Assembly: GCA_022835595.1 (NCBI GenBank) | Contig: BQUP01000002.1 | Span: forward strand, 2,032,534 to 2,096,533 | Direction of reading: 5' to 3' | DNA length: 64,000 nt | Origin: Cystobasidium ongulense | Lineage: Eukaryota > Basidiomycota > Cystobasidiomycetes > Cystobasidiales > Cystobasidiaceae | Part shown: positions 32,105 through 34,685 of the stretch, piece after piece | Position numbering within the stretch: the stretch's first letter is position 1 | How the letters are laid out: every line of letters begins with the position of its first letter | Made by a program: the position numbers and the translations under genes | The notes under the pieces: model-generated | What the model was told of the DNA's origin: nothing | Seen by the model: the letters and a program-made list of their open reading frames with translations, nothing else | Database searches by the model: none

Positions 32105-33418
32105 ATGAGCCCACCCAACTACACCCTAGAGCTTGACCACGCTCAGCAGCGACCACCGCTTGCTGAACCTACATCCGCCACCATTCCGCGCGGATTGCCA
32201 GAAGCAAAGCATCATCATACACATGCTGCATTTCCCGTCAATGGACAAGTCAAGCATGAAGATCCTACCGAGTTGTCTATTTACTTTGTCGGCACAGTGA
32301 GACACTGGCCTTGTCGCTAACTCGAGAGCTTCGGCTGACTGCCGTTCCTTGCCTTCATTATACAGGCGACGACGATCTTCGAGAACAAATACTTTGTGCG
32401 CATACTAACTAATCATGAGCGCAGATGTGCTGTTACTGAGCTCGACTGTATTAGCGTATTATGACAGACCCAAACTTCCTGCATGCGGGCGAGTTCTCTG
32501 GTTCCTGACAATGCGGGGCATATGCTGACTTTCCGTTAATATATCACAGGCGATCATGTCCATCTAGGACCCGGAGTCACAGCGCAAAGAAAGACAAACC
32601 CAGCAGTCTCAATGAATGAGCTGCCCTCAATTGATGCCATACTGTTATCGCATTTCCACGAAGGTAAGATTACTAATACGACAATGGCTTGTCAGACTAA
32701 CTCTCTGCGCAGATCATTTCGATAAAGAGGTACAAGAGAGACTACGCAAGGATTTACCTATCGTCACCACTTTAGAAGCGTGCAAGCCATTGGTGGAGCT
32801 AGGCTTTTCAGAAGTAACTGGTCTCAGCACGTGGGAATCCGCTCTAATCAAGTTCAAGACTGAAGACAAGCCCAAGTTGAGTTTACGCGTAGTGTCTACT
32901 CCCGGCAAGCATGTCGCTGGACCTATCATTGAGGCCTTGAACGACTTTATGGCTGCCGTACCTCCAACGACTGGATTTGTGCTCGAGTTCCTGTGGGACA
33001 ATAAGCCAGAGCAGGAAGCCGCCTTCAGAATCTACATCTCTGGAGATACGCTATTTGTGAAAGATCTAGAGGAGATCCCGAAGCGCTACCCTGACATTGA
33101 CCTTTTGATAGTTCATCTTGGAGGCACTACAATTCCTGGACCTCACCTTCCACTGCTTATGGTGACCATGGACGCAAAGCAAGGTATCAAGCTCGTCCAA
33201 CTTATCAAGCCAAAAGTGACACTCCCTGTTCATTTTGATGGTGAGTAGACTTTCTCTGACGACACTAGAGGAAGCTTGAGCTGAAGATGTCAACAGATTA
33301 CGATGTCTTCATGTCTCCTCTCGAAGATTTTAAGAAGGAGATGACTAGTGCCGGGCTGGCAGATAAGGTCGTGTACATGGATAGAGGCGAACGCTTTGAC
33401 TTTTCCATCCGGTCATGA
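32105..33418 (+). CDS. MBL-fold metallo-hydrolase
   Basis: The start at 32105 (MSPPNYTLELDHAQQRP) is followed by LSIYFVGTATTIFENKYFRIMTDPNFLHAGDHVHLGPGV, assembled from three exons. The metal-binding motif AILLSHFHEDHFDKE (HxHxDH, about 32640-32720) comes next, then FRIYISGDTLFVKDL with the bridging Asp and LLIVHLGGTTIPG. The last His comes from LPVHFDDYDVFMSP at an exon junction (about 33225-33310). The protein ends GERFDFSIRS. Related fungal enzymes act on lactones or phosphodiesters; the substrate is unknown. One intron (32489-32549) needs a GC donor to keep frame. The frame is open upstream to 31742, but that part shows no conservation-like sequence. Confidence 0.88.
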
Positions 33419-33793
33419 GTGGCGAATTCGGATGTAACGATATTGTATCTCGATATTAATCTTAATTCTTCGAGTCAGCTCACTGCAGATGGAGTCGTTA
33501 TCTCCAACTAATCAAGCCAACTCACTGATGAAAAAGCCAACTCACTGCTGAAAAAGAAGCTTTCGCACACCGCGTACAAACTTCTCCAAGCTCTCCTTCC
33601 AAGCGCGTCAAGAAGATGTAGTCCTTCCATAATGTAGCTAGAGTCGACATCACATGTAGCTAGTCGTACAGTGCAAGCAATGTATCAGAATGAACCTGTC
33701 CGCCACCATTTCGGAATTTCTTCGTAGAAACCACAGAACGACAGCCGAAGTTCATAAAAGTCATTTTGCAAATGCAAATCATCAATCCGTTTA
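33419..33793. other. intergenic region upstream of the tRNA gene
   Basis: About 375 bp with no coding signal. It contains the 20-bp tandem repeat and two copies of ATGTAGCTAG at about 33632-33665. Confidence 0.4.
33514..33556. repeat. two-copy tandem repeat, 20-bp period
   Basis: The unit AAGCCAACTCACTGATGAAA is followed immediately by a second copy with one substitution (CTG for ATG). It lies downstream of the MBL gene and outside any gene. Confidence 0.6.
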
Positions 33794-33809
33794 GGGAGGA
33801 TGGCCGAGT

Positions 33810-33871
33810 TTGTCTCTATTCATCTACGAATCATTAATCTTCTCGTACTTACAATCTTATCATCATCAGGT
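33810..33871 (+). other. 62-nt insertion in the D-loop of tRNA-Leu
   Basis: Removing 33810-33871 restores a standard Leu D-arm (GCCGAGT-GGTCTAAGGC). The insertion is pyrimidine-rich and poor in G, holds a 5-bp hairpin (TACGA 33825-33829 with TCGTA 33843-33847) and ends CATCATCAGGT. The exact edges are ambiguous by one base because T flanks both sides. A GT-AG reading (33812-33869) is also possible but would leave four extra D-loop nucleotides. Confidence 0.75.
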
Positions 33872-33893
33872 GGTCTAAGGCGCTGGTTTTAGG

Positions 33894-33904
33894 ACATATA
33901 AGTT
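33894..33904 (+). other. canonical tRNA intron, 11 nt
   Basis: The sequence acatataagtt lies between G37 (33893) and C38 (33905), the position used by the eukaryotic tRNA splicing endonuclease. Its removal gives the standard loop TTTAGGC. Confidence 0.85.
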
Positions 33905-33948
33905 CACCAGTCTTCGGGCGTGGGTTCGAATCCCACTTCTCTCAAATC

Positions 33949-33952
33949 TTTT
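33949..33952 (+). terminator. RNA polymerase III terminator
   Basis: A run of four T lies 5 bp after the discriminator base of tRNA-Leu. Four T is the minimum efficient Pol III stop. Confidence 0.55.
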
Positions 33953-34523
33953 GCTCCGGCTGTCTAGGGATCTAGCTCTGGAGCTTCTGTCTTTTTTCCT
34001 CTTCCTGCGTTCATGGTCCCGTCGGTTCGGTTGATCGCCACAAAGACTTTTTTTCTTCTGATGCTTCTGGCATTACAGTCAGCTGTTGAAAACATGCTAC
34101 ACTTGAGCCTATGCTCTAAAGGTCGTCTTCTTGAGGACGCCGATGCCTTCCTGATTAAAGCACTTGCCCGATATTTGAGAAGAGGGCTTGGCGTCGCCTG
34201 AAACCAAACCACCTACCTCCATTAGTACTAAACGGTTCACAGTGTAATTTGTAGCAGCAGAGTCCACCATATACAATCCTCCTGGTGTTACACGAAGCAG
34301 GCTTACTGTTGAAGCTGTTTTACATACGTGGCGATCAGCGACTCCACCACCTGCCGGTCCAAGCGCCCTCTCCAGAACAGAAAGAAGCTCGCTACATGTT
34401 TACACAGTGCAAATGCAAACAATCTTCTATTACATGCTCAATGATTGAGTCAATTCCTAAGCTCCTCAGAGAGTCAGATCTCCATTGATGCTTTCCAATC
34501 TTAAACTCGCGCTGGAGGCGAGT

Positions 34524-34680
34524 AGAGCTACGAACGTCTGCAGTATCTGCTCGCATGGATGGTACATGGGTTGTTGATTGGGGCTTTCAGGTGGAATGTT
34601 TGAAATTCCGCCTGAAAGCTTCAATTAACAACCCACGATACCCAGCCATGCGAGCAAATACTGCAGACGTTCGTAATTCT
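34524..34680. repeat. long imperfect palindrome (foldback element)
   Basis: The left arm 34529-34597 and right arm 34605-34675 are reverse complements with roughly 88 percent identity by eye and a 7-nt loop (GTTTGAA). The perfect outer segment is TACGAACGTCTGCAGTAT on the left. The inner segment is GCTTTCAGG(T/C)GGAAT. Weaker pairing extends outward to 34524 and 34680. No target-site duplication is evident. Transcribed, it would form a hairpin of about 70 bp. It could be a MITE-like foldback element or a local inverted duplication. Confidence 0.8.
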
Positions 34681-34685
34681 GGTGT

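Follow-up and report, generated by a model that had tools for sequence, protein, structure and literature searches.

The window analyzed here, a stretch of 64,000 nucleotides (nt) from contig BQUP01000002.1 of the basidiomycete Cystobasidium ongulense, contains at positions 33794-33944 a gene for the leucine transfer RNA (tRNA) with the anticodon UAG, tRNA-Leu(UAG). The gene is interrupted by a 62-nt insert and, separately, by an 11-nt intron in the anticodon loop (Table 1). With both removed, the acceptor stem pairs at 7/7 positions and the T and anticodon stems at 5/5 each, and the D stem forms three pairs. From the raw locus ARAGORN reported no tRNA; after excision of the D-loop insert it called tRNA-Leu (tag) with an intron of 11 nt. 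The initial annotation of this DNA had described paired stems, a canonical intron and an insert whose removal restores the Leu D arm, and all of this is borne out. Its length of 62 nt for the insert also stands; its position of 33810-33871 is one of three equivalent placements that arise because GT is present on both sides of the insert, and 33808-33869 alone gives a GT start and an AG end.

It is the only Leu(UAG) gene found: a DNA search of the genome returned nothing but the window gene. A pattern of the Leu(UAG) D stem and anticodon had four matches genome-wide, and the other three lack a T arm. A bacterial-mode tRNA scan of the whole window found nothing, as split genes are expected to escape it.

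Table 1. Elements of the tRNA-Leu(UAG) locus, in window positions
Feature	Position	Strand	Basis
TCATCAA motif, possible RNA polymerase III start region	33779..33785	+	upstream motif counts; putative role
Exon 1: acceptor 5' strand, D stem 5' strand, start of D loop	33794..33807	+	
62-nt D-loop intron of spliceosomal type, GTTTGT...CATCAG	33808..33869	+	GT-AG ends, CTTAC, tRNA restored on removal
CTTAC branch-site motif; candidate branch A at 33851, 18 nt before the intron 3' end	33848..33852	+	
Exon 2: rest of D arm, anticodon stem 5' strand, TAG anticodon (33890-33892), G37	33870..33893	+	
Canonical 37/38 anticodon-loop intron, 11 nt	33894..33904	+	ARAGORN after removal of the D-loop insert
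Exon 3: anticodon stem 3' strand, variable arm, T arm with intact B box, acceptor 3' strand, discriminator A	33905..33944	+	
TTTT, RNA polymerase III terminator-like	33949..33952	+	T-run counts downstream of split and intact genes

Inserts of the same kind in other tRNA genes

The genome scanned comprises 19.77 megabases in 19 contigs. Loci were collected with the B-box pattern GGTTCRANYCC (79 matches genome-wide), with three other stem pairs followed by TTTT (24, 21 and 20 matches), with a wider earlier pattern for which 100 of 167 matches were listed, and with an Rfam tRNA search that gave 32 matches, 63 of 554 candidates being scored. All places from the GGTTCRANYCC search and the three TTTT patterns were screened; loci obtained through B-box and Rfam searches are not a random sample of tRNA genes. 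With the window gene included, at least 20 tRNA genes representing 18 anticodons on 10 contigs contain 25 GT-AG inserts of 55-67 nt. A first set of 15 genes and 19 inserts was obtained by reading the loci. It consists of single inserts in Leu-UAG, Ser-AGA, Arg-CCU, Arg-UCU, Lys-UUU, Cys-GCA, Phe-GAA, Gln-UUG, Asn-GUU and each of two Gly-GCC genes, and of two inserts in Leu-AAG, Trp-CCA and each of two Ile-AAU genes. Numbered by hand, the positions of all inserts range from about 7/8 (Ala-UGC) to 46/47 (Ile), and none falls at 37/38, where many of the split genes also keep the canonical intron.

The remaining genes emerged from a screen that begins with structure. For 44 T arms with 5/5 pairs, an upstream acceptor strand pairing at 7/7 positions and followed by TRG was sought. 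Such a partner was present for 31 of the 44, at distances that are bimodal, 15 lying at 53-95 and 16 at 113-199. The 16 distant cases are the 15 genes already read and one previously missed, elongator Met-CAU (L026, contig C7), with a 62-nt D-stem insert GTAAGT...CTGAC...AATAG; ARAGORN called nothing in its raw sequence and tRNA-Met in the spliced one. A relaxed screen of the remaining 13 T arms gave an intact partner for seven, a split Ala-UGC gene for one and nothing for five, and 22 places remaining from the GGTTCRANYCC search and two of the TTTT patterns added four T arms; three of these belong to split genes, and the fourth (L147), read as Thr-AGU, is intact. Where a T arm has an acceptor partner pairing at 6/7 or 7/7 positions, the totals are 20 split and 23 intact genes.

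For the last four split genes, GT-AG removals of 45-90 nt, single or paired, were ranked by ARAGORN; only GT-AG cuts were tried, so that the ranking carries no control. The best product was tRNA-Tyr (gta) among 137 removals for Tyr-GUA (L140), which has two 60-nt introns, tRNA-Leu (taa) among 27 for Leu-UAA (L141), with one insert, and tRNA-Ala (tgc) among 38 for Ala-UGC (L023), whose one insert ends in AAG. Among nine removals for L145, with its intron between positions 32 and 33, the best product was labelled Ala (tgc) by ARAGORN and read by hand as Thr-UGU. All five structure-first genes, Met-CAU, Tyr-GUA, Leu-UAA, Thr-UGU and Ala-UGC, then showed GT...CTNAY...AG. In the Thr-UGU gene (C7:1420-1870) the GT-AG intron lies inside the anticodon loop and adjoins a separate anticodon-loop intron, so that two kinds of intron share one loop.

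Splice signals and comparison with host introns

A GT...AG placement is possible in 25/25 introns, or strictly in 24/25, since Arg-UCU fits the tRNA better as GA-AG. The 3' ends are CAG (17 introns), TAG (7) and AAG (1), and the donors are GTTAGT (11), GTAAGC (4), GTGAGT (3), GTAAGT (2) and five others that occur once each. A CTNAY motif with its A 15-23 nt from the intron end is present in all 25 introns, and in 24 of them the distance is 17-23 nt, as compared with 12.1% of shuffled introns at the latter spacing. A reading as introns of the minor (U12) spliceosome was set aside because its branch motif is of a long type, unlike CTNAY.

Alignment of Erg26 homologues with the window yielded exons, but the number of introns was too small for statistics, and host introns were therefore represented by consensus counts. 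Candidates in the window that start with GTNAGY peak at 55-69 nt, with 33 against 8 in a reversed-sequence control, and GTRAGT...CTRAY...YAG occurs 45 times in 165 kilobases (kb) of host DNA against 9 in the control, the candidates thus including false ones. The length of the tRNA introns coincides with the mode of these candidates, and their branch spacing matches as well.

Two observations concern the introns themselves. The complement of GTTAGT, ACTAAC, resembles a branch site; both are rare in host DNA, yet among the tRNA introns GTTAGT is the most frequent donor. The introns of the Leu-UAG gene of the window (L001) and of Ser-AGA (L100) interrupt the same site, GCCGA|GTGG, and by eye 20 of their last 22 bases are identical, which suggests descent from one source or transfer from one type II tRNA gene to another.

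Restored cloverleafs

When the 15 genes of the first set were spliced in silico, 251 of 255 pairs in the acceptor, T and anticodon stems formed. The four unpaired positions fall in the Lys and Cys genes, whose ends were set one base off, and the structure screen gives 7/7 for both. In Trp the script scored the anticodon stem as 5/5 with a 4-nt intron, leaving an overlong variable loop; read by hand, the gene has instead a 37/38 intron of 15 nt, and its stem contains a single T-T mismatch. ARAGORN reported the expected isotype for 0/15 raw and 11/15 spliced sequences.

Because ARAGORN is too permissive to serve as the sole judge of junctions, a restricted count and a structure filter were used in its place. 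Only products that keep the anticodon and the ends were counted, and the scan covered nine of the 15 genes, with 10 introns: Arg-CCU, Arg-UCU, Leu-AAG and Trp, which ARAGORN misreads or misses even when spliced, were left out, as were the second Gly and the second Ile gene, which are near copies. Over these introns, the probability that a product scoring no lower than the model would be GT-AG multiplies to 10^-14.8. For Lys-UUU the GT-AG product is the single best of 3035.

Paralogues and intact genes

The two Ile-AAU genes have identical exons (74/74; 29/29, 18/18 and 27/27 by exon) within unrelated flanks (36/124 upstream, 32/66 downstream). Their first introns are identical at 46/63 positions, with GTAAGC, the CTTAC region and AG kept, and their second introns are near-identical (63/65). 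The Gly pair agrees at 19/19 and 52/52 exon positions and at 62/63 intron positions, with 52/100 upstream and 39/60 downstream. In both pairs the two members carry introns at the same sites. The Lys-UUU gene has an intron and the two similar Lys-CUU genes have none.

Intact genes in the ARAGORN census include Lys-CUU, Met, Val, Thr, Asp, Ala, Pro, Gly, Leu-CAG, Gln-CUG, Glu and Ser. Calls of Cys (aca) for L018, Ile (aat) for L113 and Ile (gat) for L021 were reassigned by hand to Arg-ACG, to His-GUG with a 13-nt intron and to an Ala-CGC-like gene, respectively, and the intact Met gene (L004) is, from its T loop, presumably the initiator. For Phe, Trp, Cys, Asn, Tyr, Ile and elongator Met, this pattern-based, non-exhaustive census, in which Tyr had no pattern of its own, turned up split genes and none that is intact. 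A pattern for an intact GAGC-type D arm with a C32 anticodon loop matched 113 times against 107 in the control (100 were listed, two of them the Lys-CUU genes), and a second such pattern matched 91 times against 103, all 91 being listed; none of 20 places examined from these patterns was called a tRNA. The sequence TRGCTCAGNNGGNNAGAG has four matches in the genome and none in the control; three of the four lie in split genes (Asn and both Ile), and no tRNA is visible at the other.

Transcription signals

A TTTT run within 45 nt downstream is present in 15/15 split genes, 21/21 intact genes and 22/166 random sequences, a count that is partly built in, as some genes came from a TTTT-requiring pattern. 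TTTTG follows 14/15 split and 19/21 intact genes as compared with 8/166 random sequences. Upstream, TCATC(A)(C)AA occurs within 60 nt of 6/15 split and 4/21 intact genes and in 1/166 random 60-mers, and a TATA-like motif in 4/15, 7/21 and 5/166, respectively. B boxes are intact in the split genes, and the A box is interrupted in several of them, the window gene included.

Nature of the inserts

Together these observations make it very likely that the insert in the window belongs to the U2-type (major) spliceosomal introns, of which at least 25 interrupt 20 tRNA genes here, and that the nuclear tRNA-Leu(UAG) gene carrying it is functional. The split tRNA genes are very probably functional, and tRNA production in this host probably depends on the spliceosome. 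As modelled from the sequence, RNA polymerase III (Pol III) would transcribe the split genes, which keep the B box and the T-run. The spliceosome would recognize GU...CUNAY...AG and remove the D-arm intron of the window gene in the nucleus as a lariat, after which tRNA endonuclease and ligase would take out the intron at 37/38, with RNase P and tRNase Z trimming the tRNA ends. The initial annotation had considered an additional, non-canonical intron whose route of removal was unknown. The intron part of that proposal holds; the route is most likely the spliceosome, the GT...CTTAC...AG signals having gone unnoticed there. Its hint at intron gain, drawn from the host's intron-dense genes, pointed toward the spliceosome without the spliceosome itself being proposed.

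The annotation's other suggestion, a gene killed by a recent insertion that has not yet decayed, has a precedent in D- or T-arm insertions of eukaryotic tRNA genes, which, according to excerpts of a review (PMC4090602), mostly affect a single member of a large synonymous set and are regarded as pseudogenes. Here 19 more such genes exist beside that of the window, 18 anticodons are affected, and the failure of the non-exhaustive census to show an intact gene for any of seven indispensable tRNA species makes a pseudogene reading hard to hold. The Ile exons are identical despite diverged flanks and a diverged intron 1, and GT-AG ends can be placed for every insert, Arg-UCU being arguable; we regard inactivation as very unlikely. 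Removal by the tRNA splicing endonuclease at structures resembling a bulge-helix-bulge would follow what is described for archaea, red and green algae and nucleomorphs, where introns occupy many positions of the tRNA body (excerpts of PMC4090602 and PMC3978253), and many of the split genes do keep an anticodon-loop intron. However, a strict bulge-helix-bulge with sliding, a motif that the annotation had named as worth looking for, was found at 0/25 junction pairs (0/19 and 0/6), and none was seen in the predicted fold of the window precursor. To our knowledge the tRNA endonuclease needs neither GT-AG ends, nor a fixed branch motif, nor a host-like length, and we consider its involvement at these sites improbable to a high degree.

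More room is left for spliceosomal introns in precursors made by RNA polymerase II (Pol II), from which the tRNA would be cut out later. Spliceosomes normally work on Pol II transcripts, and an A box interrupted as in the window gene would fit such an origin. The kept B box and the downstream T-runs of split and intact genes alike, with the TTTTG excess over random sequence, favor Pol III, and a Pol II origin appears unlikely. That the inserts are an assembly artefact or misread sequence can be given next to no credence, as the same intron grammar recurs at 20 loci on 10 contigs and both Ile and both Gly copies carry introns at the same sites.

Several results weigh against a spliceosomal intron as read here, or limit how far it reaches. 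ARAGORN on its own rarely picks the GT-AG product, which is the sole best in Lys only (19 scans) and ranks 1201 of 4055 in Asn; in Met-CAU other cuts score equally well. ARAGORN made no call for the GT-AG product of Arg-UCU, and the GT placement produces a 12-nt D loop where a 59-nt GA-AG placement yields tRNA-Arg (tct). The AAG end of the Ala-UGC intron is a further soft spot. The introns also differ in composition from those of the host: G makes up 8.3% of the tRNA introns (8.6% over all 25) and 21% of the host candidates, a value that their false members may inflate (Mann-Whitney p = 6e-10, for sequences that are not fully independent). The donor GTTAGT, found in 8/19 tRNA introns of the first set (11/25 overall), shows no intron excess in the host, with 2 against 4 in the control, and is under-represented in the 165 kb of host DNA (29, as compared with 82 for GTAAGT, 89 for GTGAGT and 97 for GTCAGT). 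It is plausible that their scarcity of G would prevent the introns from pairing with the tRNA, leaving both the splice sites and the cloverleaf unobstructed. With the A box split in several genes, the strength of the Pol III promoter is uncertain; the near-identity of the Gly pair and of Ile intron 2 indicates that recent duplication or conversion was also involved, and the tRNA gene census, being pattern-based, is incomplete.

Neighborhood of the window gene and other loci

Upstream of the tRNA gene, an open frame at 32616-33245 on the + strand encodes a Lactamase_B_2 domain, a fold that also occurs in tRNase Z; the frame had no match among solved structures. About 580 bases downstream lies a long inverted repeat (34521-34682) with weak matches to microRNA families, one family on both strands. 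Rfam matches near the window gene are below gathering scores, and most are to this repeat, which is perhaps a miniature inverted-repeat element or a hairpin RNA. The best six matches of the Erg26 fragment in the window are metagenome proteins, from 97% down to 74%; among named organisms, Microbotryomycetes and their kin reach about 50%, so that this one protein makes a Pucciniomycotina yeast the probable host.

Elsewhere in the genome, L027 (C4:1303576, - strand) and L028 (C4:1306601, + strand) are facing Ser-like tRNA copies 3 kb apart with a long anticodon-loop intron, for whose acceptor stem the relaxed screen found no 6/7 partner. L082 (C9:333621, + strand) duplicates the Gln-CUG gene located at C9:330809 except in its 5' part, which differs. 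It is a true-looking partial tRNA copy and would offer a pseudogene contrast to the split genes.

Relationship to known systems and implications

Among the literature matches listed, a set that lies mostly outside the subscription literature and leaves absence unproven, none was recognized as describing nuclear tRNA genes with spliceosomal introns. The nearest precedents are introns in U6 small nuclear RNA (snRNA) and ribosomal RNA (rRNA) genes. In Rhodosporidium, snRNA genes carry introns, and the intron of the Schizosaccharomyces pombe U6 snRNA gene is of the messenger RNA (mRNA) type, as proposed here for tRNA genes. An mRNA-type intron is likewise given for the Rhodotorula hasegawae U2 gene in the title of a reference in PMC2586383. 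These hosts are spliceosomal RNAs encoded by single or few genes, whereas here ordinary tRNAs are affected, in many genes and in several cases by two introns. Spliceosomal introns of fungal rRNA genes, known from reference titles in PMC2586383 and PMC11782384, are also mRNA-type introns in genes not transcribed by Pol II and differ in having an rRNA as host.

The ectopic tRNA introns and permuted genes of Cyanidioschyzon merolae, prasinophytes, nucleomorphs and archaea resemble the present ones in lying outside 37/38 and in occurring several per gene. In the excerpts of PMC3978253 and PMC4090602, their removal is ascribed to a bulge-helix-bulge or an unknown mechanism, GT-AG and branch signals go unmentioned, and the introns of the Guillardia nucleomorph measure 3-24 nt, as compared with 55-67 nt here. 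The same excerpts relate that the tRNA set of C. merolae looked incomplete to a standard finder. The canonical 37/38 introns of nuclear tRNA genes, present in many of the same genes, differ from the GT-AG introns in position, length and removal machinery.

Gaps in the tRNA sets of other basidiomycetes may be of the same kind. For Cryptococcus neoformans the absence of a Leu-UAG gene is reported in PMC8963569, and for Phaffia 49 tRNAs with only 12 anticodon species are given in PMC5103461. As ARAGORN misses split genes in raw sequence, such oversight may explain tRNAs 'missing' from other fungi, and the gaps in these two may hide split genes. A broader scenario, which we put forward tentatively and hold to be possible rather than probable, is that of a basidiomycete lineage in which the spliceosome controls a large share of the tRNA supply. 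Repeated intron invasion of Pol III tRNA genes would have been followed by a specialized class of G-poor introns with a GUUAGU donor, tuned to spare tRNA folding and coupling translation to splicing capacity, and the 'missing' tRNAs of other basidiomycetes may hide in the same way. If the spliceosomal reading of the inserts is correct, tRNA finders overlook real genes, and the gaps in Phaffia and Cryptococcus neoformans become directly testable. The split genes would provide a natural system for the study of intron gain in Pol III genes, and the spliceosome would be essential to translation by a second route.
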